This document shows, in pieces, positions 48,761 to 64,000 of a stretch of 64,000 nucleotides of DNA. Position 1 is the stretch's first letter, and each line of letters opens with the position of its first letter. Origin of the DNA: Chloroflexota bacterium (lineage in GTDB: Bacteria; Chloroflexota; Anaerolineae; Anaerolineales; Villigracilaceae); NCBI GenBank assembly GCA_016213105.1, contig JACRBN010000026.1, positions 868,001 to 932,000 on the forward strand, read 5' to 3'. A model generated the notes under the pieces. It was given only the letters and a program-made list of their open reading frames with translations, was not told the origin of the DNA and searched no databases. Both the position numbers and the translations under genes were made by a program.

Positions 48761-48839
48761 AAAACAAAACCCGAAGGACCGAACCAGATAAGAACATCTC
48801 CTGCATCTCATGGACGGTCATCGCCGCAAAGGAATTGCC

Positions 48840-50276
48840 ATGCCTGAAAATGAACCACTTCCATATCCAAGCCTGCACACGGATGACCCGTCGGTCAACC
48901 GCGCCTATCGCATTGCGCTGGGCGACCTGTTGGGCAATGTCCAACCGTTCCAGGAGGGCCTGCTGGAGGAACCGCGCCCCGTGCTGCTGGCCGGTCTGGA
49001 TTACGACACTCCCTGGACGCGCGATGCAGCCATCAATGTCTGGAACGGACTGGGGTTGATCTGGCCGGGGGTTGCGCGCAATACACTGCTTTCCGTGCTC
49101 GAGCGCAAGGGGGATCGCCTGCTGATCGGCGGTCAATATTGGGACGCGATCATCTGGAGCCTGGGCGCCTGGACGTATTATCTTCATACCGGCGAACGGG
49201 ATTTCCTGGCGCTGGCTTTGCAGGCGGTGCGCAACAGCCTCGAACGCTTCGAGGCCGAGGAATTCGACGCGGACTTGGGTCTCTTTCGCGGCCCGGCCGT
49301 CTACGGGGATGGCGTCGCGGCGTATCCGCAGCGTTACTCGCCCGGCGGGACCAGCTCGATCCTCGACTGGGTCCAATTCAACCCGCAGCGGAAAGCCGAC
49401 CGCGGCTACGGCATCCCGATGATGAGCCTTTCGACCAATTGCGTCTATTACCAGGCCTACCGCACCGTGAACTGGATGGCGGAGGAATTGTCGCTGAGTC
49501 CGGTGTTCGCCTATGAACAGCGGGCAGCCGCCTTGTGTGAAAATATCCAGAAGCATTTTTGGAATCCAGCGCTGGGAACCTTCCGCTACCTGGTGGATGC
49601 CGAGGGCGGCAGTGACCACCAGGAGGGGCTGGGCCATTCCTTCGCCCTGCTGTTTGGCCTGGCGGATGCGCAGCAGGCCCGCAGCGTGCTGGACAAACAA
49701 TTCATCGCCCCGGCCGGCATCCCCTGCGTCTGGCCGTCCTATGAGCGCTATCTTCAAAAGGGCGGATATGGGCGGCACAGCGGCACCGTCTGGCCTTTTA
49801 TCTCCGCTTTCTGGGGCGCGGCGGCGCTCCAGCATGGGCGTTCGGACCTGTTCGAGCGGGAGTTCAAGCTATTCAGCGGCCACATCAACCGCCACGGTCA
49901 ATGCGCCGAGATCTATCACCCGCTGAGCGGGGAGGTGTACGGCGGCTTGCAGGAGGCGGGTCAGGGCGCGGATGGGCTGGAGTGGGCCTCCTGCTCCCGC
50001 CAGAGTTGGACCGCCAGCGCCTACCTGCGCATGCTCCTGTTCGGCGTGGCGGGCCTGCGCTTCAGCAGCGCGGGCGTGGAGTTTCAGCCTTGTTTGATGG
50101 ATGGCCTGGAGAAGGTGCAAATCAACCCACTGCGGTATCGCAGCAGTTTGTTGGACTTGACCCTGATTGGCCGCGGGACGCAGATCCGCCGCTTCTCGGT
50201 CAACGGTGTGAGCGCCGAACCCTTCCTGCCCGCCGATGTGTGGGGGGAACAGCGGGTGGTGATCGAGGTGGGATAG
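48840..50276 (+). CDS. (alpha/alpha)6-barrel glycoside hydrolase (GH63/GH37-like)
   Basis: A 478-residue cytoplasmic glycosidase of the six-hairpin barrel superfamily. LAGLDYDTPWTRDAAINVWN has the Trp-Arg-Asp type substrate motif, GGQYWDAIIWSLGAWTYYLH follows, and the late HSGTVWPFISAFWGAAALQH with EWASCSRQSWTASAYLRMLL lines the active site. Similar proteins include mannosylglycerate hydrolase-like (MGH1) and amylo-1,6-glucosidase-like enzymes. The start at 48840 has AAAGGAA upstream; an ATG at 48810 is less likely. Substrate not predictable. It is monocistronic or reads into the DUF2207 gene 108 bases on. Confidence 0.8.
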   Translation: MPENEPLPYPSLHTDDPSVNRAYRIALGDLLGNVQPFQEGLLEEPRPVLLAGLDYDTPWTRDAAINVWNGLGLIWPGVARNTLLSVLERKGDRLLIGGQYWDAIIWSLGAWTYYLHTGERDFLALALQAVRNSLERFEAEEFDADLGLFRGPAVYGDGVAAYPQRYSPGGTSSILDWVQFNPQRKADRGYGIPMMSLSTNCVYYQAYRTVNWMAEELSLSPVFAYEQRAAALCENIQKHFWNPALGTFRYLVDAEGGSDHQEGLGHSFALLFGLADAQQARSVLDKQFIAPAGIPCVWPSYERYLQKGGYGRHSGTVWPFISAFWGAAALQHGRSDLFEREFKLFSGHINRHGQCAEIYHPLSGEVYGGLQEAGQGADGLEWASCSRQSWTASAYLRMLLFGVAGLRFSSAGVEFQPCLMDGLEKVQINPLRYRSSLLDLTLIGRGTQIRRFSVNGVSAEPFLPADVWGEQRVVIEVG

Positions 50277-50384
50277 GCGCTCCCCTGGGCGCATCTCCCG
50301 GGCGTGATTGTTAAAGTGTTGTAAATAACTGGCTTCCGTCCCAACTTTCCCGTATGATTAACGTAGAAATAATCGGAGGAACCC

Positions 50385-52070
50385 ATGCTGCGAAAATCTT
50401 TCGTCACGCTCGTTTCGGTCCTGTTGATTGCCCTGTTTACGGCCACCCCGGCTTTGGCGGCGAAATCCTATTACGCCGAGCGCTTCGATGTCGATGTTGC
50501 CATCCAGGAAAACGGTTCGATCATCGTCACCGAAACCGTTGAATTTCACTTCGAAGGTGACCCGTTCACCTTTGCCTTTCGCGAAATCTCCGCCGCCGAA
50601 ACCGACGGGTTGACCTTCCTCGATGCCAGCATGGACGGCGTCCCGATGCCGCTGGGCACTCAGGCGGGACAGGTGGAGGTCTCGGGCGGGGATTCGCTCC
50701 AGGTGAAGTGGCATTTCCCAGCCACGTCCAACGCCACGCGCGTCTTTACGGTGCGCTACCGCGTCGAGGGCGTCATCCGCAAGGGGCAGGCGGATACCCT
50801 CATTTGGCGTGCCATCCCCGAAGACCACGATTACGCCATCCGGGCCTCCACCATCACGCTGACGTTTCCCTCGCAGGCGGTCCCGCTCGAAGCGCCGCGC
50901 CTCAACCGGGACTTCGAATCTGCTTCGACGGCCCAGGGCTTTACCCTCACTGCGGGCGGACTCGACGAAGACCAGGATTTGATCCTCACCGCGCTGTTCC
51001 CTTCCGACAGCCTGACCCGGGCGGCCCCGCTTTGGCAGACCCGCCAGGAACAGACGGAGGCGGCCACCTCACAAGCTCTGCCGGTCAGCCTGTTTGCCGG
51101 GGCTGCCGCATTTCTGCTGGGCGGATTCGGCTTGTGGAGCTATGCCCGCGCCAACAAACGCGAATTGAACCTCAGCGACGTGATGCCCACGCCCAATCCG
51201 CCCTCGAACCTGCCGCCTGCCGTGGTGGGCGCGTTGACCGGCCAGCCGAACGGCTTCATGGGTGCGATCTTCGATCTTGCCAGCCGCGGCGTTTTGGAGA
51301 TCGAGGAACAGAAAGGCGCCTGGGGCACGGTCAATTACGTTCTGGCCCGCAGGCAAATGGAGGTTCCCGTGCGCCCGCATGAACAGAGCCTGCTGGATGC
51401 CTTGTACGAACGCGGCGGAACTGAAATCAATATGAACGAGATCGCCGCGCGCCTGGGGATGAAGGGTAAGGCCTTTGACCGGGCCGTGGAGGCGGAACTG
51501 GTCCAGCGCGGCTGGTTCGACCTGAACCGTAAGCGGACGCGCAGGAACCTGGCAGCCGGCGGGATCGCGGTTCTGCTGCTTTCGATCATTATTTTTATCG
51601 GTGCTGTGGTCGCCTGGGTGAGCAATGGCTTTGACGCTACGTTGTCCATGTTGTTTGCGGGGATCACCGGGCTGGGCGCGGGGACGTTCCTCCTGTCGAT
51701 CATTCTGCTGATCTATGCCGGCACGTATTCCACGCTCACCCCGGCCGGGGAGGAGCAGGCCGTCCGCTGGAAGGGTTTCCAGGCATATCTCAAACTGGTG
51801 AGCAAGGGACGGGAAACCGCCATCCGCCCCGATTTCTTCGAGATGTACCTGGCGTATGCTGCGGTCTTCGGACTGGGCGCTCAATGGGCGAAGTATTTCC
51901 AGAAAATGGGCGATGTGCCGCTGCCCATCTGGCTCCACGCTGCGGCCGGCGTGAACACCGACTTTGGCGCGATGGTGGTGGTCATGTCCGCTTCGGATGC
52001 GGCCGGCGTCAGCGCAGGCGGGGCGGGGGGTGCAGGCGCTTCGGGTGGAGGCTCCAGCGGCGCCGGATAG
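50385..52070 (+). CDS. DUF2207 membrane protein
   Basis: A 561-residue protein with a signal peptide (SVLLIALFTATPALA) and an external domain of about 200 residues built of beta strands (DVAIQENGSIIVTETVEFHF) typical of DUF2207. Helices occur near residues 225-250 and 390-450, and a cytoplasmic segment lies between. The C terminus is a Gly/Ser/Ala-rich tail (AGGAGGAGASGGGSSGAG). Ribosome site GGAGGA precedes the ATG. Function of the family is unknown to me. Confidence 0.85.
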   Translation: MLRKSFVTLVSVLLIALFTATPALAAKSYYAERFDVDVAIQENGSIIVTETVEFHFEGDPFTFAFREISAAETDGLTFLDASMDGVPMPLGTQAGQVEVSGGDSLQVKWHFPATSNATRVFTVRYRVEGVIRKGQADTLIWRAIPEDHDYAIRASTITLTFPSQAVPLEAPRLNRDFESASTAQGFTLTAGGLDEDQDLILTALFPSDSLTRAAPLWQTRQEQTEAATSQALPVSLFAGAAAFLLGGFGLWSYARANKRELNLSDVMPTPNPPSNLPPAVVGALTGQPNGFMGAIFDLASRGVLEIEEQKGAWGTVNYVLARRQMEVPVRPHEQSLLDALYERGGTEINMNEIAARLGMKGKAFDRAVEAELVQRGWFDLNRKRTRRNLAAGGIAVLLLSIIIFIGAVVAWVSNGFDATLSMLFAGITGLGAGTFLLSIILLIYAGTYSTLTPAGEEQAVRWKGFQAYLKLVSKGRETAIRPDFFEMYLAYAAVFGLGAQWAKYFQKMGDVPLPIWLHAAAGVNTDFGAMVVVMSASDAAGVSAGGAGGAGASGGGSSGAG

Positions 52071-52112
52071 TGTGAAGGTCATTCCCTGCCATGCTGTACC
52101 ACGGAAAAACAG

Positions 52113-52769
52113 ATGAATCCTGACATCGGGTACTGGGTGACCCTGTCCATTCCATTCCTCTTGATCCCCAGCGCATGGGTCGTCTTTGTTTCCCTTTCGA
52201 AACGGCTGGGAAGGGAAAAGGGATATCTGCTCGGCTTCCTCTTTTACTGGCTGGTCTGGTGTGTGCTGGTTCCCCTGGCCATCCTTGGCTGGGACGGTTT
52301 TCAGCTCCTGTTCGTGGATACGGTTCCGCTCTTTTCCCGCCCGAACTGGCCGGCCGCCGTTTTATTTGCCTTCATCTCCCTGGTGACCCTGCTCATGTAC
52401 GGCAGGGATTTCCTTCGGGCGTCCCCGACCCTGATCCTCATCGCCATCCCCGCCGCCACGCTCAACGGCATTTGCGAGGAACTGCTCTGGCGCGGATTAT
52501 TCGTGCGGGCCTTCCCCGACAATATCTGGCTGGCAATCGTGCTCCCGTCCATCGGATTTGCGCTCTGGCATTGGGTGCCCCTGCAAATCCACTCGCAGGG
52601 CGGGCGGACGGCCTTTGTGATCTCCACGTTTTTTCTGGGCCTGGCCTATGGCTGGATTTCGTATGAAACCGGCTCAGCCAGGTGGGCGGCTGTCTCGCAC
52701 AGTCTGAACGGAATTTTGGCCCTGGGTGGGATGATTGCGCCGTCCGTCTTGAAATTGCTCAAGCGTTGA
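52113..52769 (+). CDS. CPBP-family intramembrane metalloprotease (CAAX-like)
   Basis: A 218-residue polytopic protein with the Abi/CPBP motifs: ICEELLWRGLFVRAF (Glu-Glu and Arg), GFALWHWVP (zinc-binding His) and AAVSHSLNGILAL (second His region). These are the expected catalytic residues, so it is probably active. Targets in bacteria are mostly unknown. It follows DUF2207 by 43 bases and is the last gene before the 370-base gap that leads the catabolic operon. Confidence 0.88.
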   Translation: MNPDIGYWVTLSIPFLLIPSAWVVFVSLSKRLGREKGYLLGFLFYWLVWCVLVPLAILGWDGFQLLFVDTVPLFSRPNWPAAVLFAFISLVTLLMYGRDFLRASPTLILIAIPAATLNGICEELLWRGLFVRAFPDNIWLAIVLPSIGFALWHWVPLQIHSQGGRTAFVISTFFLGLAYGWISYETGSARWAAVSHSLNGILALGGMIAPSVLKLLKR

Positions 52770-53138: not shown

Positions 53139-54542
53139 ATGGCAGTTCAAGAAAAGAAGATCATCGGTTATCTTCCAGAAGATACGCCTCCCGTGGGCGC
53201 CATGTTGAGCCTTGGGTTTCAGCAATTCCTGACCATGTTCCCCGCCACGGTTCTGGTCGCCATCCTGACCAAATTCGATGTCGGCATCACCCTGCTGGCC
53301 TCCGGTCTCGGGACGATCATCGCCCTGCTGGTCTCGAAGCGCAAAATCCCGATGTACTACGGCTCATCCTTCTCATACATTGCGGTCATCATCACGGTGA
53401 TGAGCAAGTTCGCGCCGGATTGTTATAACTCTACAGCAGTTTATTGCCCAGAAGGCGTTCAGATTGTCCAGGTAGGCATCGTTCTGACGGCGGTGTTCGA
53501 GATCCTGATTGGCTTGCTAATCATGCGCATCGGCAAGGCAGCGCTGGATCGCGTCCTGCCGCCCATCGTTACGGGTTCGATGGCCATGGTCATCGGTATC
53601 GCGCTGGCCAATGCGGCCCTCGGCAACGCCGGCAACTGGGCGGCTCCAGAGGTGGCTGCAAAAACATGGATCGTGGCCTTCATCACCCTGGTCGCGACCA
53701 TCCTGTTCTCGGTCTATTTGCAGGGCAAGGGCTTGATCGGCATGCTGCCAATTTTGCTTGGCGCGATATTCGGCTATCTGGTTGCCATTCCTTTTGGATT
53801 GGTGCATTTTGAGAATGTCACCAACGCACCCTGGCTGGAAATGCCCAAGTTTACCTTCCCCGCCTTCACCAATCCAGATGCCTGGGGCATGGCGCTCAGC
53901 ATTGCTCTGATCTTCATCGCCACCATCCCTGAATCGACCGCGCACCTGTACCAAATGAGTCTCTACATTGACGCGCTCGCGGCCGAAATGGGACGCAAAC
54001 CCCACAACATCAAGGAACTGATCGGCCTCAACCTCATTGCGGATGGAACGGACGATGTTGTGGTTGGACTCCTCGGTGGCTGCGCCGGCACGAACTATGG
54101 TGAGAACAATTCGCTCATGGCAATTACTCGCAACTATTCAACTGCCGTGCTGATGACCGCGGGAGGCATTGCCTTTGTGCTGGCCTTCTCTGGCAAACTG
54201 GTGGCGCTGGTCAACACCATGCCTGCGGCGGTCGTCGGTGGCTTGAGCATCTACCTCTTCGGCGTGATCGGTATGCAGGGCGTCGCCCTGATCCAGTCCG
54301 AGAAGGTCAACCTGTTCGACCCGAAGCAGTTGGCCGTCGGCGCGATCATCCTGATCACCGGCATTGGCGGCAACCTGGCGCTTGCCAATGGCGTGTTCCC
54401 CTTCAACATTCCGTTCCTGTTCCCGAATGGAATTCCCGCCATCGTCTTTGCGGCCATCCTGGGCATCCTGGTCAACACGATCTTCCTCGTATTACCACCT
54501 TCCCGCTTTGGCATCAAAGAACGGGATAATATCAACAAGTAA
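53139..54542 (+). CDS. NCS2 nucleobase permease (UraA/uracil-type residues)
   Basis: A 467-residue proton-coupled nucleobase transporter of the uracil-xanthine permease family with about 14 helices. The family signature appears as TNYGENNSLMAITRNYS (Glu322), and the helix-8 Glu is in ATIPESTAHLYQMS (Glu265). Both resemble UraA-type uracil permeases (Glu in the TYGENxG motif), whereas xanthine/urate members have Gln there. Ser325 replaces the usual Gly. GAGGAG precedes the ATG. It leads the operon with the molybdenum hydroxylase, so a uracil-like or other N-heterocycle is likely imported. Annotation pipelines would probably call it xanthine/uracil permease. Confidence 0.9.
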   Translation: MAVQEKKIIGYLPEDTPPVGAMLSLGFQQFLTMFPATVLVAILTKFDVGITLLASGLGTIIALLVSKRKIPMYYGSSFSYIAVIITVMSKFAPDCYNSTAVYCPEGVQIVQVGIVLTAVFEILIGLLIMRIGKAALDRVLPPIVTGSMAMVIGIALANAALGNAGNWAAPEVAAKTWIVAFITLVATILFSVYLQGKGLIGMLPILLGAIFGYLVAIPFGLVHFENVTNAPWLEMPKFTFPAFTNPDAWGMALSIALIFIATIPESTAHLYQMSLYIDALAAEMGRKPHNIKELIGLNLIADGTDDVVVGLLGGCAGTNYGENNSLMAITRNYSTAVLMTAGGIAFVLAFSGKLVALVNTMPAAVVGGLSIYLFGVIGMQGVALIQSEKVNLFDPKQLAVGAIILITGIGGNLALANGVFPFNIPFLFPNGIPAIVFAAILGILVNTIFLVLPPSRFGIKERDNINK

Positions 54543-54552
54543 TCCAACGCCT

Positions 54553-54632
54553 CATGCCGGCCCGTCTCGCGGCTGGCATGGGATCACACCATCGGTGGAA
54601 CGTTTGCGCGAAGATCCCCAGGCGTTCCACCG
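54553..54632 (+). other. Two stem-loops after the permease gene
   Basis: CATGCCGGCC/GGCTGGCATG (54553-54580) and CGGTGGAACG/CGTTCCACCG (54593-54602 and 54623-54632). No T run follows, so they are more likely mRNA-stabilising or processing structures than terminators. They lie in the 135-base gap before the hydroxylase genes. Confidence 0.6.
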
Positions 54633-54677
54633 GTCTTCCATCTGTAATGGAACACATTCTCCTGCAAGGAGACCCAC

Positions 54678-55571
54678 ATGACTCTTGATACTCATCCGAC
54701 ACTTCCTGAATTCGAATATATCCGACCGGCGACCCTGGCCGAGGCCAGCGACTTCCTGGCCCGCCATGCTGGGGAGGCGCGTCCCTTCCTGGGCGGCACT
54801 GACGTCTTCGTGCGCATGCGGGACGGTTTTTTGACCCCCAGGTACCTGGTCGATGTGAAACGACTGGACGGCATGAACGATCTGCGCTTCGACCCGCAGG
54901 CGGGCCTGACCATTGGCGCGGCGGTCAACATGAACCGCGTGGCCGCGGCGCCCGAGGTGCAGGCGCATTATCCGTTGCTGGCGGAGGCCTGCCGCACGGT
55001 CGCCAGTTATCAACTGCGCACGCGCGCGACCATCGTCGGCAATATCTGCAACGCCTCCCCCGCCGGCGACACCATCGGCGCCTGCCTGTTGTTCGACGGC
55101 GTGCTGCACATCCAGGGCGTGGACGGCCCCAGGCTGGAGCCGCTCAAGTCCTTCTTCCTTGGCCCCGGCAAGACCACCCTGAAGCCGGGCGACATCGTCA
55201 CTGCGATCCAGTTCCCGCTCCCGCCGCAAGGCTGCCAGGGGACCTACATCAAACTGGGCCGTAACAAGTTGAGCGATCTGTCCATCGTCGGCGTGACGGC
55301 CCTCGGGTGCCCGGACGCGGCCTGCGCTTCGGGGTATCGCTTCCGCGTAGCGCTGACTTCCGTTGCGCCGGTGCCGCTGGTGGCGGGCGCGGTCGAGACC
55401 TGCCTGGCGGAGAATCCCATCACCCCCGATGCCATCCAGGAGGCGGCCCGCCTGGCCGCGGAAGCCAGCACACCCATCGATGACGTGCGCGGCAGTGCGC
55501 GCTATCGCAAACAAATGGTGGGGAAACTGTCGGCGCGCGCCTTGAACGCCGTCTGGCGCAAACTGGGTTGA
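54678..55571 (+). CDS. Molybdenum hydroxylase FAD-binding subunit (XdhB/CoxM-like)
   Basis: A 297-residue middle subunit. PFLGGTDVFVRMRDGF is the first FAD loop, TRATIVGNICNASPAGDT the second, and the C-terminal domain has KQMVGKLSARALNAVWRKLG. It passes electrons from the iron-sulfur clusters to FAD and then to the acceptor. It belongs to one complex with the next two genes (order FAD, iron-sulfur, molybdenum). CAAGGAG precedes the ATG. Confidence 0.92.
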   Translation: MTLDTHPTLPEFEYIRPATLAEASDFLARHAGEARPFLGGTDVFVRMRDGFLTPRYLVDVKRLDGMNDLRFDPQAGLTIGAAVNMNRVAAAPEVQAHYPLLAEACRTVASYQLRTRATIVGNICNASPAGDTIGACLLFDGVLHIQGVDGPRLEPLKSFFLGPGKTTLKPGDIVTAIQFPLPPQGCQGTYIKLGRNKLSDLSIVGVTALGCPDAACASGYRFRVALTSVAPVPLVAGAVETCLAENPITPDAIQEAARLAAEASTPIDDVRGSARYRKQMVGKLSARALNAVWRKLG

Positions 55572-55590
55572 GACGCGGATCGGAGAAACC

Positions 55591-56073
55591 ATGGCATTCC
55601 ATAAAATAAATATCACGGTAAATGGCGCACAGGAGCAGGTCGTCGTTCCGTCGAACATGACGCTCATGCAGATGCTGCGCGAGAGCCTGGCCCTGACGGG
55701 CACCAAGAACGGCTGCTCGGCCGGCGAGTGCGGCGCATGCACCGCGCTGATGAACGGCGAACCCGTCAACACCTGCATGGTGCTGGCCGCCGAGTGCGAC
55801 GGCGTGGAGATCGTCACGGTGGAGGGATTGGCGGACGACAATCGCCTTTCCCCACTCCAGGAGGCGATGCTGGCAACGGGCGGCGTCCAGTGCGGATTCT
55901 GCACGCCCGGCGTCCTGATCTCCTCGCGCGCCCTGCTCGACCGCAATCCCAACCCCAGCGAGGACGAGATCCGTGAGGCGCTGGTTGGGAATTTGTGCCG
56001 CTGCACCGGCTACGTGCGCATCATCGAGGCTGTCAAGGCGGCCGCCAGGACGCAAGTGGCGGCGTCGGCCTGA
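55591..56073 (+). CDS. Molybdenum hydroxylase 2Fe-2S subunit (XdhC/CoxS-like)
   Basis: A 160-residue small subunit. The N-terminal plant-type cluster has GCSAGECGACTALMNGEP with a fourth Cys in VNTC; the second, helical cluster has QCGFCTPGVLIS and LCRCTGYVRIIEA. All eight cluster Cys are present. It starts 19 bases after the FAD subunit and 55 bases before the large subunit. Confidence 0.95.
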   Translation: MAFHKINITVNGAQEQVVVPSNMTLMQMLRESLALTGTKNGCSAGECGACTALMNGEPVNTCMVLAAECDGVEIVTVEGLADDNRLSPLQEAMLATGGVQCGFCTPGVLISSRALLDRNPNPSEDEIREALVGNLCRCTGYVRIIEAVKAAARTQVAASA

Positions 56074-56128
56074 CCGCCGTTCCAGGAAAGTTCCAAACCA
56101 GATTTATGCATCCATAAGGAGAACACTT

Positions 56129-58483
56129 ATGGTCGAACCTAAAGTGCAAGGCAATATCAGTCCGGTTGGCGAAAACAAACCCCGCATCGACGCGCGCGAA
56201 AAGGTGACCGGTGCCGCCGTCTACGCCGATGACATTCAATTCGGCAACGGCCTGCTGCATGCCCGCATCAAACGCAGCCCGCACCCGCACGCCCTGATCA
56301 AGAAAATCGACGTTACGAAGGCGCGCGCCCTGCCCGGCGTGAAGGCCGTTGTGACGGGAGAGGATTTCCCCGGTTACATCGGGTTGTATTTACAGGACCG
56401 CTACATCTTTTGCCGCGACCGCGTGCGCTACGTGGGCGACCCCGTGGCCGGGGTGGCCGCCTCCAGCGTGGAGATCGCCGAGCAGGCCCTGGATTTGATC
56501 GAAGTGGAATATGAGCTGCTGCCGCCGGTGCTCGATCCCGAGTTCGGCGCTGGCGCCGAGGCCCCGCTGCTGCATCCAGACCTGGGAAAATACGTGGTGG
56601 CGAATTTCATCTTCCCCCAGGCGGGGACGAATATCTCCAACCACTTCAAGATCCGCAAGGGCGACGTGGACGGCGCTTGGGAACAGTGCGCGGCGGTCGT
56701 CGAGCGCAAGTACCGCATCCCCCACATCCAGCACGTGCCCATCGAGACGCACGTTGCCATCGCCAAGGTTGAAGTGACCGGCGAGATCACCTTGTGGGGC
56801 AGTTCCCAATCCCCGTTTGCGCAACGCAACCTCATCGCCCAGTCCATGGGCATCTCGCAGAGCAAGATGCGCGTCATTGCGCCCTTCGTCGGCGGCGGAT
56901 TTGGCTGCAAGGCCGGCGTGAGCATGGAAGCCCTGGCCGTCGCCATCGCGACCAAGGTCAAGGGACATCCCGTCAAGCTGGTGCTGACCCGCGAGGAGGA
57001 ATTCTATACAGCCTTCGTGCGCCAGGGACTGGTGGCCTATTTCAAGATCGGCTGCGACGCGCAGGGCCGCCTGCTGGCCATGGAAAATAAATTCTACTGG
57101 GACGGCGGGGCCTACACCGAATACGGCGTCAACGTTACGCGCGCCTCGGGCTACAGCAGCAGCGGACCCTACGAAGTCCCCAACATCAAAACGGACAGTT
57201 GCTGCGTCTACACCAACCATCCCGTCGGCGGGCCGATGCGCGGTTTCGGCATGCCCGAAATGCACGCCGGGCTGGAACAGTGCATCGACGAACTGGCCCT
57301 GCAGATCAAAATGGATGCGGTCGATTTCCGCAGGCTCAACTGCCTGAAGACCGGCAGCTCCCTGGTGACCGGCAGCAGGATGCATCCCACCGGCCTGCCG
57401 CAGTGCATCGAGAAAGCCGCGGATGCCATTGGCTGGGGCAGAAAGGCTCCCGCCAGCGCCCCTAACAAACGACGCGGCAAAGGCCTGGCCCTGATGTGGA
57501 AGGCGCCCGCCATGCCGCCCAACGCCGGTTCGAGCGCCTGGGTGGAACTGGCCGAAGACGGCTCGCTGAACGTGGGCGTGGGCGGCCAGGATCTCGGTCA
57601 GGGTGTCTTCACCGTGGCGGCCCAAATGGCTGCCGCCGCCTTGGGCGTGCCCTACGAGTCGGTGCGCGTGGCCATTCCGGTGGATACCCGTTACAGCCCG
57701 TACGAGTGGCAGACGGTCGCCAGCCGCCTGACCTGGAGCATGGGCAATGCCATCGTCAACGCCGCAAAGGATGCCCGCCGCCAGATCCTGGAGACCGTGT
57801 CGGCGGCCTGGGAGGAGCCCATCGAGAATTTGGACATCGTCAACGGTGTCGTGATTTCGTTCAAGAGCGAGAAGGAAGTCCCACTGAAAAACCTGGTCAT
57901 TTACGGGCTGCCCAAGCCGGACGGCCAGGGCTGGCGGGGCGGACCGATCGTTGGGCGCGGCAACTTCATGCCCACCTACGTGACCGGCCTTGACCCCGAG
58001 ACCGGCCAGGGTGAGCGGGCGGTGGTTCACTACACCACCGGCGCACAGGCCGTCGAATTGGAAGTCGACCTTGAGACCGGGCGCATCGACATCCTGCGCG
58101 GCGTCTCGGCTTTCGATGTCGGCAAGGCCATCAACCCCGAGCTGGTCAAGGCGCAGATGGAGGGCGGATTCGTGCAGGGCATGAGTTCAGCCCTGTTCGA
58201 GAGCCTGCAACTGAAAGGTGGCGTGCTCCAGAATCCCAGCTTCGTCGATTACCGCATCGCCACCTCCACCGATGCCCCCAAGGACCTCGAAGCCTTCATC
58301 GTCGAGGTGCCGCAGGACGACGGCCCGTGGGGCGCGCGCGGCATCGGTGAACATTCCATGGTGCCGACCATCCCTGCCATCGCCAACGCCATCTACGACG
58401 CGGTCGGCATCCGCCTGGACGGCCCGCCTTTCACCGCTGAAAAAGTGTACCTGGCCATGCTGGACGCTGGCATTGTGAAGTGA
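56129..58483 (+). CDS. Molybdenum hydroxylase large subunit (XdhA-like)
   Basis: A 784-residue molybdopterin-binding subunit. It opens with DAREKVTGAAVYADDI, then WGSSQSPFAQRNLIAQSMGI, APFVGGGFGCKAGVSMEALA, and GGPMRGFGMPEMHAGLEQCI. The catalytic Glu is in GARGIGEHSMVPTIPAIANA near the C terminus. The CO-dehydrogenase selenocysteine/Cys loop AYxCSFR is absent, so it is not a CODH; it groups by motif with purine, nicotinate and other N-heterocycle hydroxylases. GFGCK in place of GFGGK is a local variant. Real substrate unknown: xanthine is the default guess, but uracil or another heterocycle would fit the permease. The start at 56129 has AAGGAGA; the frame from 55973 overlaps the previous gene. 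Confidence 0.92.
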   Translation: MVEPKVQGNISPVGENKPRIDAREKVTGAAVYADDIQFGNGLLHARIKRSPHPHALIKKIDVTKARALPGVKAVVTGEDFPGYIGLYLQDRYIFCRDRVRYVGDPVAGVAASSVEIAEQALDLIEVEYELLPPVLDPEFGAGAEAPLLHPDLGKYVVANFIFPQAGTNISNHFKIRKGDVDGAWEQCAAVVERKYRIPHIQHVPIETHVAIAKVEVTGEITLWGSSQSPFAQRNLIAQSMGISQSKMRVIAPFVGGGFGCKAGVSMEALAVAIATKVKGHPVKLVLTREEEFYTAFVRQGLVAYFKIGCDAQGRLLAMENKFYWDGGAYTEYGVNVTRASGYSSSGPYEVPNIKTDSCCVYTNHPVGGPMRGFGMPEMHAGLEQCIDELALQIKMDAVDFRRLNCLKTGSSLVTGSRMHPTGLPQCIEKAADAIGWGRKAPASAPNKRRGKGLALMWKAPAMPPNAGSSAWVELAEDGSLNVGVGGQDLGQGVFTVAAQMAAAALGVPYESVRVAIPVDTRYSPYEWQTVASRLTWSMGNAIVNAAKDARRQILETVSAAWEEPIENLDIVNGVVISFKSEKEVPLKNLVIYGLPKPDGQGWRGGPIVGRGNFMPTYVTGLDPETGQGERAVVHYTTGAQAVELEVDLETGRIDILRGVSAFDVGKAINPELVKAQMEGGFVQGMSSALFESLQLKGGVLQNPSFVDYRIATSTDAPKDLEAFIVEVPQDDGPWGARGIGEHSMVPTIPAIANAIYDAVGIRLDGPPFTAEKVYLAMLDAGIVK

Positions 58484-58487
58484 GCCA

Positions 58488-60047
58488 ATGATCACCAAAG
58501 CCCTGCTCAAACCCAGCGAATATCACGACTCGGTCAGCCTGATGCTGGTGGCGCGTGAACTCTCCAAACTGGAGGGCATCCGCGACGCTGCCGTGATGAT
58601 GGCGACCGAGGCCAACAAGTCGATCATGGCCGAGGCGGGGTTGTTGACCGCCGAGGCCGACTCGGCCACGCCCAACGACCTGCTGATCGCCGTCAGCGCC
58701 GAAGAAGCCTCTGTGGCCGAAGCCGCCCTGCAAAAGGCCGAAGTCCTCTTGAAGAAGAAAGCCGCCGCGAGTGAGACGGGCGAGTTCAAGCCCAAAACCA
58801 TCCGCGGCGCGCTGGCCTCCAATCAAGCCGCCAACGTGGCGGTCATCTCCGTGGCGGGACGCTACGCCACCGACGAGGCCTGGGAAGCCCTGACGCGCGG
58901 CCTGCACGTGCTGCTCTTCAGCGACAACGTCTCGCTGGAGGATGAGATCGCCCTGAAAAAATATGCCCGCGACCACGGCCTGCTGCTCATGGGCCCGGGT
59001 GCGGGCACGACCATCCTCAACAACGTGGCGCTCGGTTTTGCCAACGTTCTGCCGCGCGGCCCCGTCGGCATCGTCTCGGCGGCGGGCACGGGCTTGCAGG
59101 AGGTCAGCACGCTGCTGGCCCGCCGCGGCGTGGGCATTACCCAGGGCATCGGCACGGGCGGCCGTGACCTGAAGAAGGAAGTCGGCGGCATCATGATGCT
59201 GGAGGCCTTGAAGGCGCTTCAACAGGATGACGCCACGCAGGTGCTGGTGCTGGTCAGCAAGCCGCCTGCCGCCGAGGTGGTCAAGACCATCCTGGACCAG
59301 GTGGCTGCCTCCGTTAAACCGACCGTCATCTGCTTCCTGGGCGGGGACGTGTCTGCCCTGCCGAAGCTGCCCAATCTCATTGCGACGGGTACGCTGTACG
59401 AATGTGCCTTGCTGGCCGCGAACGTGGTGCAAGGCCAAAGCGGGAATGTTAAAGAATTGCTCGAAGTCGAAAACGCCAAACTGGCCGAACAGGCCAAAGC
59501 GCTCAAGGCTAAGCTCAACCCGAATCAACGCTACCTGCGCGGACTGTTCTCGGGCGGTACGCTATGTTATGAGGCGCAGGTCATCTGGAAGGAAATGCTC
59601 GACGTTCCCGTTTATTCCAACGCGCCATTGCCTGGCGGCCCCAGCCTGCAAGATTCCACCAGGAGCTATCAGCACACCACCGTCGACCTGGGCGAGGAGG
59701 AATTCACGGTCGGACGTCCGCACCCGATGATCGACAATGACCTGCGCATCCGCCGCCTGTTACAGGAGGCGCGCGACCCCGAAGTGGCCGTCCTCCTGCT
59801 GGACGTGGTCATCGGCTACGGCGCGCATCCCGACCCGCTCAGCGAACTGGGGCCTGCCATCCGACAGGCCAAAGCCCTAGCCGAACGCGAACTGCTGGTC
59901 GTGGCGTCCGTGACGGGCACCGAAGAGGATCCGCAAAAACTGAGTACACAGATCGCCGCCTTGCAAGCCGCGGGCGTCATCGTCTGCGAGAGCAACGCCG
60001 CCGCGGCCCGCCTGACGGGACTGCTCGTCTCGGGAGGAGCGCAATGA
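58488..60047 (+). CDS. fdrA: FdrA family protein (AllF-like)
   Basis: A 519-residue protein of the FdrA family, related to the alpha part of succinyl-CoA synthetase. LLMGPGAGTTILNNVALGFA, SAAGTGLQEVSTLLARRGVG and ITQGIGTGGRDLKKEVGG are nucleotide-fold loops. The phosphohistidine loop of succinyl-CoA synthetase is absent and YLRGLFSGGTLCYEAQVIWK is found instead. In E. coli FdrA with DUF1116 (YlbE) and DUF2877 (YlbF) makes the oxamate carbamoyltransferase of allantoin breakdown. Here only the first two are present. It may therefore carry out a carbamoyl or acyl transfer on the product of the hydroxylase pathway. It starts 4 bases after the large subunit gene. Confidence 0.9.
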   Translation: MITKALLKPSEYHDSVSLMLVARELSKLEGIRDAAVMMATEANKSIMAEAGLLTAEADSATPNDLLIAVSAEEASVAEAALQKAEVLLKKKAAASETGEFKPKTIRGALASNQAANVAVISVAGRYATDEAWEALTRGLHVLLFSDNVSLEDEIALKKYARDHGLLLMGPGAGTTILNNVALGFANVLPRGPVGIVSAAGTGLQEVSTLLARRGVGITQGIGTGGRDLKKEVGGIMMLEALKALQQDDATQVLVLVSKPPAAEVVKTILDQVAASVKPTVICFLGGDVSALPKLPNLIATGTLYECALLAANVVQGQSGNVKELLEVENAKLAEQAKALKAKLNPNQRYLRGLFSGGTLCYEAQVIWKEMLDVPVYSNAPLPGGPSLQDSTRSYQHTTVDLGEEEFTVGRPHPMIDNDLRIRRLLQEARDPEVAVLLLDVVIGYGAHPDPLSELGPAIRQAKALAERELLVVASVTGTEEDPQKLSTQIAALQAAGVIVCESNAAAARLTGLLVSGGAQ

Positions 60048-61441
60048 CGAAAATCAACGATATCTTCGGCAAGGACTTGACCGTGGTCAACGTCGGCCTG
60101 GCGAGCATGGCCCAGTCGGTCAGCGCCCAGGGCGTCAAGGTGGTCGACCTCGACTGGCAGCCGCCCAAGGACGGGATTCCGCACCTGCGCGTGACCCAAT
60201 CAGGCGTCAGCATGGAGGATGCCAACCAGGAGGTCGTCAGCCGCATCCGTCGCGGAGGGGCTTTCCTGGTCGGCATGGGCATCGCCCGCGACGTCATCCC
60301 TGGCATGCACGATCACATGATCCTGCACGCCGGCCCACCCATCGAGTGGGATCGCATGTGCGGCCCGACGCGCGGCGCAGTCATGGGCGCCTTGATCTAT
60401 GAAGGACTTGCAAAAGATGAAGAGGAAGCCGCCAAGCTGGCTGCCTCGGGCGCCATCGAGTTCTCGCCTTGCCATCATCATCAGTCTGTCGGCCCAATGG
60501 CGGGCGTGGTGTCTCCCAACATGCCCGTCTTCATCCTCGAAAACAAGACGTTTGGTAACCGCGCCTACTGCACCCAAAACGAAGGACTTGGAAAAGTCCT
60601 GCGCTACGGCGGCATGGGCCCCGAGGTGTACGCGCGCCTGAAATGGATGGAGACCGATCTCTATCCCGCGCTTGACCGTGCCTTGCAAAGCCTGCCCAAT
60701 GGCATTGACATCAAGAGCCTGATCGCGCAGGCCCTGCACATGGGCGACGAGTGTCACAACCGCAACCGCGCCGCCACGTCGCTGTTCCTGCGCGCCATCG
60801 GCCCCGCGCTGGCCCGCACCAATCAGGACAATGAAACGCTGGCGAAGGTCATCGAGTTCATCGACCGCAACGACCACTTCTTCCTGAACCTGTCCATGCC
60901 CGCGGGCAAGGCCATGCTCGAAGCCGCGGAGGGAGTTGAGGGCAGCACCATCATCACGGTCATGGCCCGCAACGGCACGGACTTCGGCATCCGCCTGGCG
61001 TCCATGCCCGAGCGTTGGTTCACCGCGCCCGCAGGCAAGGTGCAGGGACTGTACTTCCCGCAATACACCGACGCCGACGCCAATCCCGACATCGGCGACA
61101 GCACCATCACCGAGACGGCGGGTTACGGCGGCATGGCTATGGCGGCTGCGCCTGCCATCACGCAGTTCGTCGGCGGGACGCCGCAACTGGCCACCCAGAC
61201 CACGCTGGAGATGTACGAGATTACCTTTGGCGAGCACGAGAACCTGACCATCCCTGCCCTGAATTTCCGCGGCACGCCGCTCGGTATCGATGTGCGCAAG
61301 GTGATGGAAACAGGCATCCTGCCGCAGATCAATACAGGCATTGCCCACAAGAATCCTGGCGTGGGCATGGTCGGCGCTGGTATTCTGCGCGCGCCCGAAA
61401 AATGTTTCAAGGATGCCTTCGAGGCATTGCAGGAAATGTGA
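60044..61441 (+). CDS. DUF1116 protein (YlbE/AllG-like)
   Basis: A 465-residue DUF1116 member. Family features are HDHMILHAGPPIEWDRMCGP, SPCHHHQSVGPMAGVVSPNM and GIDVRKVMETGILPQINTG near the C terminus. It overlaps FdrA by 4 bases (ATGA), so the two are probably a complex. In E. coli the homologue is part of oxamate carbamoyltransferase; the role of DUF1116 in such a pair is not fully understood. The next gene is 92 bases on, past a long inverted repeat. Confidence 0.92.
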   Translation: MTKINDIFGKDLTVVNVGLASMAQSVSAQGVKVVDLDWQPPKDGIPHLRVTQSGVSMEDANQEVVSRIRRGGAFLVGMGIARDVIPGMHDHMILHAGPPIEWDRMCGPTRGAVMGALIYEGLAKDEEEAAKLAASGAIEFSPCHHHQSVGPMAGVVSPNMPVFILENKTFGNRAYCTQNEGLGKVLRYGGMGPEVYARLKWMETDLYPALDRALQSLPNGIDIKSLIAQALHMGDECHNRNRAATSLFLRAIGPALARTNQDNETLAKVIEFIDRNDHFFLNLSMPAGKAMLEAAEGVEGSTIITVMARNGTDFGIRLASMPERWFTAPAGKVQGLYFPQYTDADANPDIGDSTITETAGYGGMAMAAAPAITQFVGGTPQLATQTTLEMYEITFGEHENLTIPALNFRGTPLGIDVRKVMETGILPQINTGIAHKNPGVGMVGAGILRAPEKCFKDAFEALQEM

Positions 61442-61448
61442 GTAATAG

Positions 61449-61496
61449 CGGTGGTCGAGTAGCCCTCAAAGAGCATTCGGGGCTACTCGACCACCG
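61449..61496 (+). other. Long intercistronic inverted repeat
   Basis: A perfect 17-bp inverted repeat (CGGTGGTCGAGTAGCCC, 61449-61465, and its complement, 61480-61496) round a 14-base loop, 8 bases after the DUF1116 stop. No T run follows. It may protect the upstream mRNA or reduce expression of the cyclase gene. Confidence 0.75.
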
Positions 61497-61533
61497 GGTT
61501 GCCAAAAATTCAAACCATTAAAAAGGAGTTCCC

Positions 61534-62415
61534 ATGAAATTCATTGACCTGACCATCCCGCTTGGCATTGCCACTCCTGCCTGGCCCACGTATGAACCGC
61601 TGCAAGTCAAGTACTTCAAGCGCCTGGCCCCCAACGGTGCCAACGGACAGGTGGTCACCCACTCCAATCATCTCGGCACCCACCTGGATGGCGAGATCCA
61701 TTTCCACACGCCTGGTAAGGACATCGCCTCGCTCGACATGGACTTCCTGGTTCACGAAGCGGCTGTGGTCGACCTGAGTGACATCTGCGGCGACTATGAC
61801 GTGTACACCAGCAAGATGGTCGAAGAGCGTGTCGAAGTGCGCGAGGGCGACATCCTCATCATCCACACGGGCTATCACCACTTCGGCTGGGACATGCCCA
61901 CCGCTGACGAGATCCGCTACATGGTCAAGCACCCAGGCCCCGACCGAGAGTTCGCCGAATGGGCCAAGGCCAGGAAGCTGCGCTGGATCGGCGTCGACTG
62001 CGGCAGCGCCGACCACCCGATGAACACCATCATCCGCGACTGGATGCCGCGCCAGGCCCGCCAGGCGGACAAGGTATTCAAGAAAAAATTCGGCATGCCG
62101 CTGGCAGATTTCTTCGATGACAGCAAGTACCAGCTCATGCACTTGGAGATGTTCCCGCACGGCATCATCCACGCCGAGTGCCTGGGCGGCGAGATCGACC
62201 TGCTGCTCAACCGCCGTGTGACCATCGGCATGTTCCCCTGGCGCTTCGTGGACGGTGAGTCCTGCATCTCGCGCTGCGTGGCGATGGTGGACGATGCCGA
62301 GTACGAGGAATTGATGGCGAAGAAGGCGGCCATGCAGAAGACCAAGTTCGGCGATGCCTTCGATCCCACGCACGTGGAAAGCCTGAACACCCTCACCAAG
62401 AAAAACATGGAATAG
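61534..62415 (+). CDS. Metal-dependent cyclase/hydrolase (PF04199 family)
   Basis: A 293-residue protein of the kynurenine formamidase/isatin hydrolase superfamily. The metal motif HxxGTHxDxxxH appears as SNHLGTHLDGEIHFHTPG (His46, His50, Asp52 and His56 or His58), and DILIIHTGYHHFGW is the second conserved segment. Family members hydrolyse cyclic or N-formyl amides with a divalent metal. In this operon it is a good candidate to open the ring made by the hydroxylase. AAAAAGGAG precedes the ATG. Substrate is inference. Confidence 0.88.
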   Translation: MKFIDLTIPLGIATPAWPTYEPLQVKYFKRLAPNGANGQVVTHSNHLGTHLDGEIHFHTPGKDIASLDMDFLVHEAAVVDLSDICGDYDVYTSKMVEERVEVREGDILIIHTGYHHFGWDMPTADEIRYMVKHPGPDREFAEWAKARKLRWIGVDCGSADHPMNTIIRDWMPRQARQADKVFKKKFGMPLADFFDDSKYQLMHLEMFPHGIIHAECLGGEIDLLLNRRVTIGMFPWRFVDGESCISRCVAMVDDAEYEELMAKKAAMQKTKFGDAFDPTHVESLNTLTKKNME

Positions 62416-62421
62416 TCAAAC

Positions 62422-62448
62422 GCAGGTCACGTTTCAAACGTGGCCTGC
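62422..62448 (+). other. Stem-loop between cyclase and GNAT-like genes
   Basis: GCAGGTCACGT and ACGTGGCCTGC pair with one G-U pair around a 5-base loop, 6 bases after the cyclase stop. No T run follows. Confidence 0.6.
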
Positions 62449-62483
62449 CGAATGTCATCTTAATCCACTTTAGGAGAGACCGA

Positions 62484-63173
62484 ATGGCAATGGATATGGA
62501 ACTCGAAATGGTATTGCGGCCGCCGCAGTTGCCGATGCCGCCTTACCCCCCCAAGATGGTCACCCTTGCAAACGGCAAAGTCATGGTCATTCGCCAAGCT
62601 GTGCGCGAGGATGTGCCTGCCATCCTGAAATCTGTTCACCCCTGTCTGTTCATCGAGCGCGATTACTACGACGTGGTCAGCGCGCGCGTCTATGGTGAAC
62701 TGCTGGCCTGGTATCGCTACCGTGTCAAGAGCGAGTACTGCCTGCTGGGCCAGGTGGACGGTTACCTGGTTGGCCTGGTCAACGGCCGCCTGGAGAACGA
62801 AAAGGTCGGCATGAGCTATCACACCCTGGCCATCGACCGCGGCCTGCGCATCGGCTCGCACCTGTTCGCCGCCAAGATGGAATATCACATGGAATACCTG
62901 AACCAGGATCAGGTGCTGGTCGTGGCCGAAAGCCCGATCGGCTTCCGCCGCTGGATGGTGGAGTACCCGCTGATCGAGACCAGGATCCCGCACGAGCTGG
63001 GCGGCGGCGATTCCTGGGTTCTGACCCGCGAGACTTATTTCAATGCCAAGCCGCGCCTGGTGGTGGGTGACCGCCCCGTCCCGCAGGAACTGATGGACGA
63101 AGCCATGCTCGACATCAAGTTCGCCGATGACGATACCATCCGCGAACGCATCGCCGGGTTGAAAGGGAGATAA
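62484..63173 (+). CDS. GNAT-like acetyltransferase
   Basis: A 229-residue protein. VMVIRQAVREDVPAILKSVH is a typical GNAT first strand-helix, followed by YCLLGQVDGYLVGLVNGRLE and a weak acyl-CoA region GLRIGSHLFAAKMEYHMEYL, where the usual Arg/Gln-x-x-Gly-x-Gly/Ala is changed to GLRIGS. The fold is likely but activity is uncertain. It begins 68 bases after the cyclase and ends 3 bases before the thiolase-like gene, so it belongs to this operon. I know no role for it in nucleobase breakdown. Confidence 0.65.
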   Translation: MAMDMELEMVLRPPQLPMPPYPPKMVTLANGKVMVIRQAVREDVPAILKSVHPCLFIERDYYDVVSARVYGELLAWYRYRVKSEYCLLGQVDGYLVGLVNGRLENEKVGMSYHTLAIDRGLRIGSHLFAAKMEYHMEYLNQDQVLVVAESPIGFRRWMVEYPLIETRIPHELGGGDSWVLTRETYFNAKPRLVVGDRPVPQELMDEAMLDIKFADDDTIRERIAGLKGR

Positions 63174-63176
63174 GCC

Positions 63177-64000
63177 ATGAGAGACGTTGCAATTATCGGC
63201 GCTGGCATGATCCCCTTCGGCCGCCGCGATGAAGACACCCTGATGGAAATGCTGGCCTATGCCTCGCTCAAGGCGCTGGATGATGCGGGCCTGGGCGACA
63301 AAACTGTGGATGCGGTCTACGTCGCCAACATGGGCGGCGGGATGCTCCAGCATCAGTCGGCGATTGCCAGCTCGTTGGTGGACCGCCTCAGCCTGCTGCC
63401 TGCCGCCGCGGAGACCATCGAGAACGGCCCCGCCTCGGGCGCCTCGGCCATCAAGAACGGACTCCTGGCTGTGGCCTCGGGCTACTACGACTATGTGTTG
63501 GTGGTCGGCGGTGAGAAGATGCGCGAAGTCACCGGCTGGCGCGCGACCGACTTTGTCGCCACCATGACCCACCCGCAGGCGGAATATCCCTACGGCATCA
63601 CACTGCCTGGCATGGCGGGCATGTTCACCCGCCTGTACATGGAAAAACACGGCGTGACCCGCGAGCAACTGCTGGCGGTCTCGCTCAAGAATCAGGAGAT
63701 GGGCACGCTCAATCCGTATGCGCACGTCGAGATGGCGCTGGATCGCGGCGGCATCTTCGACAGCCCGCACTCCGTCGTCAACAACCCGGTCTCAGCCGAC
63801 CCGCTGCACCTGTATGACCTGTGCCCGGTCAGCGATGGCGCGGCAGCCATAGTCATCTGTCCGCTGGAGATGGCGAAGAAGCATAACAAGACGCCCATCC
63901 ACATCGCGGGCTTTGGTCAGGCCACCGACACACAGACCTTGCAGGAGCGCGAAGACCCCACCGATCTGAAAGCCGTTTCCCTGGCCGCGCAAAAGGCCTT
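63177..64000 (+). CDS. Thiolase-fold protein lacking the catalytic Cys (partial)
   Basis: The gene runs off the right end; 274 residues are visible. VAIIGAGMIPFGRRDEDTLM is the SCP2/acetyl-CoA-acetyltransferase-type start and DLCPVSDGAAAIVICPLEM is a conserved thiolase segment. The nucleophile loop, normally N-x-C-A-S-G, reads ETIENGPASGASAI, so Pro85 takes the place of Cys. Thiolysis by the usual mechanism is therefore not expected. Thiolase-fold aldolases such as Ltp2, which work with a DUF35 partner, also lack this Cys, so the downstream gene is worth reading. ATG at 63177, 3 bases after the GNAT-like stop. Confidence 0.85.
   Translation, partial: MRDVAIIGAGMIPFGRRDEDTLMEMLAYASLKALDDAGLGDKTVDAVYVANMGGGMLQHQSAIASSLVDRLSLLPAAAETIENGPASGASAIKNGLLAVASGYYDYVLVVGGEKMREVTGWRATDFVATMTHPQAEYPYGITLPGMAGMFTRLYMEKHGVTREQLLAVSLKNQEMGTLNPYAHVEMALDRGGIFDSPHSVVNNPVSADPLHLYDLCPVSDGAAAIVICPLEMAKKHNKTPIHIAGFGQATDTQTLQEREDPTDLKAVSLAAQKA

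Follow-up and report, generated by a model that had tools for sequence, protein, structure and literature searches.

A candidate pyrimidine-degrading operon of Chloroflexota that joins a molybdenum hydroxylase to a PF04199 hydrolase and an AllFGH-type transcarbamylase

Which compound is degraded by an operon in which a nucleobase permease, a molybdenum (Mo) hydroxylase, a PF04199 hydrolase and the subunits of a transcarbamylase are encoded together with a GNAT-fold and a thiolase-fold protein? The question is raised by a stretch of 64,000 nucleotides (nt) from a Chloroflexota bacterium of the Villigracilaceae (GCA_016213105.1, contig JACRBN010000026.1, positions 868,001 to 932,000), hereafter called the window, on which all coordinates given without a locus name are based. 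Nine plus-strand genes were found at 53139-64000, and the operon was seen to extend to 65616 when the host contig was read beyond 64000. Its probable function is the breakdown of a pyrimidine base, most likely uracil, with cytosine and thymine as close alternatives. Gene content, conservation, co-occurrence and replacement patterns were computed, and we infer every reaction from them; at this level, that of comparative genomics and not of biochemistry, the original prediction that a pyrimidine-like ring is hydroxylated and opened by these gene products is supported.

The proposed route has six steps. The base would be imported by the NCS2 permease, oxidised at C6 by the Mo hydroxylase to give barbiturate, and opened by the PF04199 hydrolase, acting in the role of barbiturase, to give ureidomalonate (3-oxo-3-ureidopropanoate). 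Ureidomalonate, the one-carbon-longer homologue of oxalurate, which is the substrate of E. coli AllFGH, would be phosphorolysed by AllF-AllG-AllH to malonamate and carbamoyl phosphate, and a carbamate kinase encoded elsewhere would obtain ATP from the carbamoyl phosphate. The GNAT-fold protein would then move the malonyl group to coenzyme A (CoA), from malonamate or, where AllFGH is absent, from ureidomalonate, and the thiolase/DUF35 pair, whose thiolase lacks the nucleophilic Cys, would decarboxylate malonyl-CoA to acetyl-CoA. With thymine, the carbon would end as methylmalonyl-CoA and then propionyl-CoA. Steps two to four are well supported by gene context; the sixth, guided by fold, residues and gene replacement, is a guess and the weakest part of the route.

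The gene families were assigned by model scores. Pfam matches over the curated cut-offs were obtained for Xan_ur_permease, for the flavin adenine dinucleotide (FAD), [2Fe-2S] and Mo subunits, for CoA-ligase-type FdrA, for AllG, for Cyclase (PF04199) and for Thiolase_N, confirming the permease, three-subunit Mo hydroxylase, FdrA, DUF1116, PF04199 and thiolase-fold genes originally read from the sequence, all on the plus strand with short gaps. From the permease gene to the DUF35 gene the intergenic gaps are 135, 19, 55, 4, -4, 92, 68, 3 and -1 nt, and a purine-rich site lies upstream of most gene starts. The gene for the NCS2-family nucleobase permease, nearest to the uracil permease UraA (53139..54542; PF00860, 190 bits), is followed by those for the FAD subunit (54678..55571; PF00941, PF03450), the [2Fe-2S] subunit (55591..56073; PF01799, PF00111) and the large subunit (56129..58483; MoCoBD_1, MoCoBD_2, Ald_Xan_dh_C) of a Mo hydroxylase, a proposed uracil/thymine hydroxylase of the type called T1 below. 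The start of the large subunit is most likely 56129 (ATG after AAGGAGA), and the searches used a start at 56123, two codons longer. Next come the transcarbamylase subunits AllF/FdrA (58488..60047; NF004760 FdrA, 497 bits, cut-off 433) and AllG (60044..61441; PF06545, the former DUF1116, 328.5 bits, cut-off 27), the PF04199 metal-dependent hydrolase, proposed to open the barbiturate ring (61534..62415; 106.2 bits, cut-off 23.1), the GNAT-fold protein of 229 amino acids, with a proposed function of acyl transfer to CoA (62484..63173; assigned from an AlphaFold model), and the thiolase-fold protein without the nucleophilic Cys (motif NGPASG; 63177..64364, past the window end; Thiolase_N). Beyond the window the plus strand continues with a DUF35/ChsH2-type OB protein (64364-64720) and AllH (PF11392, over cut-off; about 64723-65616). 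Of the three genes looked for past 64000, DUF35 was thus present, and neither a carbamate kinase nor a CoA-transferase gene was adjacent.

The same gene order recurs in scattered Chloroflexota, and parts of the set occur in three other phyla, so the grouping is not a matter of chance. When the GNAT protein was scanned against 84,980 species genomes, 29 loci were obtained (L018 and L031 from one metagenome-assembled genome, MAG), 26 of which we take to be Chloroflexota, with one each from Bipolaricaulota, Acidimicrobiia and Eisenbacteria (the placement of Aquidulcis and Thermoflexales was checked, the rest is presumed). A thiolase-like gene comes after GNAT in all 28 judgeable loci (L041 ends inside the GNAT gene), a PF04199 gene lies upstream of GNAT in 24 of 28 (L040 starts inside the GNAT gene; L035, L036, L038 and L039 are without it), and FdrA and/or AllG stand just upstream of PF04199 in 17 of the 23 loci that could be judged. 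Loss of this order in relatives, named beforehand as an outcome that would speak against the operon, did not arise. An AllG match was found somewhere in 13 of 16 genomes searched (one partial), hosts of AllG-less loci included. Broken-looking copies were also observed, with FdrA (L018), the thiolase-like gene (L016) or GNAT (L037) in two pieces. At L017:4283-4418, short AllG-like pieces, probably a decayed AllG, lie between the Mo and PF04199 genes, and a T2-type AllG (the sister type described below) occurs elsewhere in that genome (L055).

The most important control for conservation is the sample chosen by AllG. Of 400 sampled genomes of the phylum, 71 have AllG, 7 the GNAT gene and 10 a close PF04199 orthologue (at least 78% identity); all 7 and all 10 fall among the 71. 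The core set is scattered, as the GNAT count shows. Twenty AllG-centred stretches (L087-L106) from 20 of the 71 genomes, hand-picked among the best-scoring matches and the nearest relatives, contained both a Mo hydroxylase and PF04199 in 12 cases, neither in 8 and only one in none. Two unrelated neighbouring pathways, with the Mo hydroxylase and permease serving one compound and AllFGH and the CoA genes another, would explain why AllFGH and the GNAT/thiolase/DUF35 block are each found apart from Mo genes, and why AllG and PF04199 occur without a Mo gene in 11 of 81 tabulated stretches, many of them incomplete. Such an arrangement is nevertheless very improbable, given the both-or-neither pattern in each of the 20 stretches and the recurrence of the linkage in Actinomycetota with a different ring opener.

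That second ring opener was met where the first is missing. The metal-site motif of the PF04199 protein, H46-x-G48-T49-H50-x-D52, was invariant in 32 aligned sequences and also in another set of 16. A close orthologue is present in 28 of 30 GNAT-gene genomes (G168 and G423 are apparently one genome) and missing from G406 and G410, the GNAT contig of G410 being cut at the gene. PF09663, the family of cyanuric acid hydrolase and barbiturase, gave no match in the window's own genome and was found in one of the 30: G406, one of the two genomes without the PF04199 orthologue. Its PF09663 gene stands directly before AllH, FdrA and AllG (L052), and the product (L052:5679-6833) is nearest to the solved barbiturase 5hwe, with 526 bits, cyanuric acid hydrolases scoring 298 bits or less. 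The specificity residues given in PMC3758960 are Arg195, Thr321, Arg325, Gly345 and Gly346 in AtzD and Asn, His, Lys, Val and Ser in barbiturase; at columns that we placed from the alignment with solved structures, the L052 protein has Asn, His, Lys, Val and Ala, which makes four of the five residues of the barbiturase type.

Similar neighbourhoods were found more widely in Actinomycetota, the phylum of G406, where the PF09663 family occurs in 18 of 296 genomes. Sixteen further loci were examined together with L052 (17 in all; G615, at a contig end, was omitted), and the Asn-His-Lys-Val signature was present in 14 of the 17, the cyanuric acid hydrolase signature in L128 and L142. The remaining protein (L143:9422-10537), encoded beside T2 Mo genes, carries neither signature, shows Met in the column aligned with Ser233 and perhaps has another substrate. 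In stretches of 3 to 20 kilobases (kb), in which neighbour counts are lower bounds, the 14 barbiturase-signature loci included FdrA and AllG in 8 (L052, L132, L133, L134, L135, L137, L140 and L141), with AllH in 7 of these (not seen in L137), carbamate kinase in 9 (L129-L135, L140 and L141) and Mo hydroxylase genes in 7 (five extended stretches, L136 and L140). Neither AllG-FdrA nor carbamate kinase nor Mo hydroxylase was present in the stretches of L128 (a 3.8-kb contig) and L142. When five stretches were extended past AllG in the expectation of Mo genes, MoB-MoC-MoA appeared in all five (L144-L148), a test that was blind for three of them, since MoB/MoC had already been visible at the edge of L134 and L137. 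Near the Mo genes of four of the five (L144-L147) lies an amidase gene whose product has 31-38% identity to that of L099; amidase genes also occur in the Chloroflexota sister Mo/PF04199 operons L051, L099, L101, L102, L103, L089 and L093, and a nitrilase-type hydrolase in L054 and L100. In Actinomycetota such a cluster would encode a complete path, from permease through Mo hydroxylase, barbiturase and transcarbamylase to carbamate kinase and amidase. The conversion of uracil to barbiturate, first offered as an example, gains independent support from these barbiturase-signature genes beside the same partners.

The same loci bear on an s-triazine route, in which an AtzC-like deaminase would yield cyanuric acid, a ring opener carboxybiuret or biuret, and AllFGH would take the carbamoyl group. 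An amidohydrolase in L025 scores somewhat higher against the solved structure of AtzC (190 bits) than against that of cytosine deaminase (162 bits), allFGHK stand beside biuret genes in nitrifiers according to PMC12625717, and NCBIfam NF052395 labels the L052 enzyme a cyanuric acid amidohydrolase, over its cut-off. Barbiturase-type residues are nonetheless found in each of the 8 PF09663 loci that have AllG, and no AllG is seen in the stretches of the two loci of cyanuric signature; a triazine route has no task for the Mo hydroxylase; and NCBIfam scores the amidohydrolase best as a cytosine deaminase, below cut-off. We consider this route scarcely credible, and the NF052395 model may overreach on the L052 protein.

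Uracil as the likely substrate is also suggested by the permease. Its best NCBIfam model is uracil permease (NF007995; 232.9 bits, below the cut-off of 477), and among solved structures three uracil permease sequences come first at 153-157 bits, the next match scoring 47 bits. The Mo large subunit matched 13 NCBIfam models and stayed under the cut-off of each, including the xanthine dehydrogenase models (bits/cut-off 520.5/780 for NF043082, then 485.6/916, 440.3/783.65, 356.9/830.45 and 278.2/849.5). A plain xanthine dehydrogenase, the other outcome named beforehand as adverse, was rejected on these scores. The nearest solved structure is 4-hydroxybenzoyl-CoA reductase (359 bits), with which, as with XdhABC, the enzyme shares subunit layout, cofactor domains and the catalytic Glu motif, but it differs from these hydroxylases in falling below every model cut-off listed, in forming its own tree group and in its operon partners. 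The catalytic-Glu motif GARG[IV]GEH was found in 19 of 19 T1 rows. The substrate-binding Glu802 and Arg880 of xanthine dehydrogenase (bovine numbering, with columns chosen by motif and no bovine sequence aligned) were not seen in these 19 rows, but E. coli XdhA lacks both at these columns too, so that the two residues do not discriminate.

In the tree of large subunits, which has an arbitrary root and some long end branches, T1 (12 rows including the window, support 100/100) is separate from T2 (14 rows from sister operons). The two types may serve different bases. Their chemistry is probably common, because L056 joins a T1 Mo hydroxylase to FdrA, AllG and PF04199 genes of T2 type. The sister operons L047, L054, L087, L100, L104, L149, L150 and L151 consist of FdrA2-AllG2, a fused double PF04199 protein of about 557 amino acids and a T2 Mo hydroxylase; some carry a Bmp-type ATP-binding cassette transporter, and in L149-L151 a second, T1-like PF04199 gene lies beside them. 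Two T1 loci (L018 and L025) encode an amidohydrolase whose closest relatives are AtzC and cytosine deaminase, and a 70-residue piece of a relative was found where contig L138 ends, next to a barbiturase gene. L025 also has a second Mo hydroxylase, with Fe-S and Mo subunits in one frame (L025:1494-4280) and about 32% like the window large subunit; it is encoded between the amidohydrolase and Bmp transporter genes. The window genome (G000) holds six Mo large-subunit matches at E 1e-30 or better, on contigs C7, C14, C18, C20 (two) and C25, that on C14 lying about 15 kb from a carbamate kinase gene.

The carbamoyl part of the route is suggested by the presence in the operon of all three families of the E. 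coli-type oxamate transcarbamylase (AllF/FdrA, AllG and AllH), each over its model cut-off, with identities to the E. coli proteins in alignments of about 42% for AllF, 46% for AllG and 24% for AllH. The carbamoyl recovery first assigned to FdrA and DUF1116 is supported by gene context in its transcarbamylase reading and needs one correction, the third subunit being encoded just past the window. In E. coli, AllFGH makes oxamate and carbamoyl phosphate from oxalurate and phosphate, and it was not until 2024 that genes were assigned to the oxamate activity (PMC11326118). The operon resembles this system of AllFGH and AllK in all three subunit families and in the proposed reaction, in which phosphate would split an N-acyl urea into carbamoyl phosphate and an amide. 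It differs in that its transcarbamylase genes stand with those for a Mo hydroxylase, a ring-opening hydrolase and a nucleobase permease, in the proposed substrate, ureidomalonate, in the low identity of AllH and in the unlinked carbamate kinase. The kinase of the window genome was found over cut-off on another contig (G000:C14:54945-55877), and one over cut-off is present in all 7 phylum genomes with the GNAT gene vs 97 of 400 overall, a comparison that ignores kinship; the kinase is also carried by most sampled members of the window's family. Hypergeometric and Fisher figures likewise disregard relatedness among the genomes and would exaggerate the case, and none is used here as support. In Chloroflexota, carbamate kinase genes also stand in the sister Mo/PF04199 operons L091 and L096, and in four (L090, L092, L097 and L106) of the eight loci with AllG-FdrA and without Mo hydroxylase or PF04199 in the stretch (L088, L090, L092, L094, L095, L097, L105 and L106).

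If AllFGH kept its E. coli substrate, the locus would be a variant of allantoin/oxalurate degradation or serve another cyclic ureide such as parabanate or hydantoin, with the Mo hydroxylase and cyclase making oxalurate for cleavage by AllFGH. Beyond the E. coli precedent, a family-III CoA-transferase beside the sister operon L089 is nearest to oxalate CoA-transferase, below the model cut-off. This alternative is quite improbable: besides AllFGH, scans of the 11 operon genes, which did not extend to allantoin genes in the rest of the genome, gave no match to a family of the allantoin pathway, and the barbiturase-signature partners and malonyl-CoA-type decarboxylases would have no place in it.

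The fate of the malonyl carbon was approached through the last genes of the operon. No Pfam match was obtained for the 229-residue protein first described as GNAT-like, and its AlphaFold model (predicted local distance difference test, pLDDT, 87.3; predicted template-modelling score 0.87) bears that description out, with a Foldseek probability of 1.00 and a GNAT acetyltransferase as best VIA match (Z 13.9, root-mean-square deviation 3.0, 166 residues aligned). Both lists hold many acetyltransferases at similar Z, so that the top row is no guide to function. Malonyl-CoA decarboxylase also has a GNAT-type fold, and it was not among the 50 rows listed of either the Foldseek or the VIA search. The thiolase-like protein keeps both active-site His motifs (one row is gapped at the first), and its nucleophilic Cys is Pro in 29 of 29 aligned sequences (26 near-complete and 3 further), a coverage and identity filter having left out shorter or more divergent pieces, including that of L038. 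An ordinary thiolase was rejected on this substitution, which excludes Claisen thiolysis by the usual mechanism; the thiolase fold named in the original prediction stands, but not as that of an ordinary thiolase. Related enzymes without the nucleophilic Cys are still capable of decarboxylation or aldol cleavage, as in decarboxylating ketosynthases and the Ltp2 aldolase, and because decarboxylation survives the loss of Cys in such relatives, malonyl-CoA decarboxylation is proposed for the thiolase/DUF35 pair. Pairing with DUF35 is known for the archaeal acetoacetyl-CoA thiolase 6esq, BbsAB, PhlBC and Ltp2-ChsH2, with which the fold, the DUF35 partner and both His motifs are shared; the Pro in place of Cys sets the operon's protein apart from them.

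An obligatory partnership of GNAT with the thiolase/DUF35 pair was not upheld, since three genomes have PF04199-thiolase-DUF35-AllH without GNAT, and five loci hold a longer GNAT form without the pair. As they are separable, GNAT and thiolase/DUF35 are probably two steps and not one complex. Genes for a Na+-pumping decarboxylase of the methylmalonyl/malonyl-CoA type were found inside a T1 operon (L046:6273-9836) and next to the T1 genes of L049, there on the opposite strand (L049:12867-16315). They suit malonyl-CoA (from uracil) or methylmalonyl-CoA (from thymine) as end product. A strict replacement of thiolase/DUF35 by the Na+ decarboxylase was not upheld: L046 fits it, and G409 has both (L035 and L049).

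These decarboxylases also speak for thymine as the substrate of T1, by the same chemistry: 5-methylbarbiturate would be opened to ureidomethylmalonate, cleaved to methylmalonamate and carbamoyl phosphate, and carried on to methylmalonyl-CoA and propionyl-CoA, with the T2 sisters serving uracil. For the alpha subunits of L046 and L049 the best model is methylmalonyl-CoA decarboxylase, but at 802 and 749 bits they stay below its cut-off of 998.8, and enzymes of this type may accept malonyl-CoA. T1 and T2 Mo hydroxylases form separate groups, both of which some genomes carry (G216, with L046 and L047), and the two barbiturase-linked rows of the tree are T2; on the other side, L056 mixes the types, and two T1 loci carry a cytosine-deaminase-like gene, which speaks for uracil. 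A T1 specialised for thymine is unlikely on balance.

Several results weigh against uracil degradation by the proposed route. The predicted structure of the PF04199 protein had a mean pLDDT of 48.7, too poor for a fold search. FdrA or AllG was not found just upstream of PF04199 in 6 of the 23 judgeable loci (L014, L017, L025, L030, L032 and L041), and AllG was missing from 3 of the 16 genomes searched, all three of them MAGs. AllG was not seen in the stretch of 6 of the 14 barbiturase-signature loci, the Mo rows linked to PF09663 in the tree (L136 and L143) belong to the T2 clade and not to the T1 clade of the window, and the over-cut-off NF052395 label of the L052 enzyme counts here as well. 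The barbiturase of G406 need not serve the T1 enzyme, because two other Mo hydroxylases of that genome are 40% identical to the T2 type. No carbamate kinase was found among the operon genes, nor by tblastn in 20 kb of L002. The transcarbamylase family has other uses, given that Mo hydroxylase and PF04199 genes are both missing from 8 of the 20 AllG-centred stretches. Nor are the GNAT gene and the thiolase/DUF35 pair bound together, as either can be present where the other is missing.

The surroundings of the operon were also inspected. A divergent phosphoesterase gene on the opposite strand follows AllH. Upstream, 48810-52769 encodes a glycoside-hydrolase-like protein, a DUF2207 membrane protein and a CAAX-type protease, with no visible link to the pathway, and a 171-residue frame on the minus strand (48075-48590) resembles, as judged by eye, an antiterminator of the NusG/RfaH type.

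How much of this is new? The classical oxidative pyrimidine pathway is known from Rhodococcus and others. As described in PMC3758960 and PMC4051656, uracil is oxidised to barbiturate, which is degraded by barbiturase and ureidomalonase, and the first of these describes the route as one known from the 1950s, regarded as rare and ending in the ureidomalonase products malonate and urea. The classical route shares the proposed intermediates barbiturate and ureidomalonate with the operon, which would instead use a PF04199 hydrolase and not a PF09663 barbiturase, and a transcarbamylase and not a hydrolytic ureidomalonase, yielding carbamoyl phosphate and not free urea. No paper describing the gene set was found in the open-access literature, preprints excluded, among the matches listed and by title and start of abstract, a search that leaves subscription journals mostly outside and is no proof of absence. 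On the best reading, the kind of pathway is known, and the gene set, the PF04199 ring opener and the transcarbamylase end are undescribed among the open-access papers listed. A broader claim is tentative, its chance somewhat short of even: that the AllFGH homologues are ureidomalonate transcarbamylases, forming a pyrimidine branch in at least two phyla that conserves energy as carbamoyl phosphate, that PF04199 replaces the unrelated barbiturase in Chloroflexota, and that GNAT and the Cys-less thiolase/DUF35 form a new module from malonyl amide through malonyl-CoA to acetyl-CoA.

If the proposal is true, the barbiturate route would be more widespread than thought, with at least two unrelated ring openers and an energy-conserving transcarbamylase end in many genomes, and the AllFGH enzyme family would gain a second substrate. 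It would also provide candidate genes for the uracil-oxidising enzyme and for an old, poorly known degradation route, and open the DUF35/Cys-less thiolase module to direct test. For the organisms themselves, it would suggest how some uncultured Chloroflexota may live on the nucleobases of dead cells.

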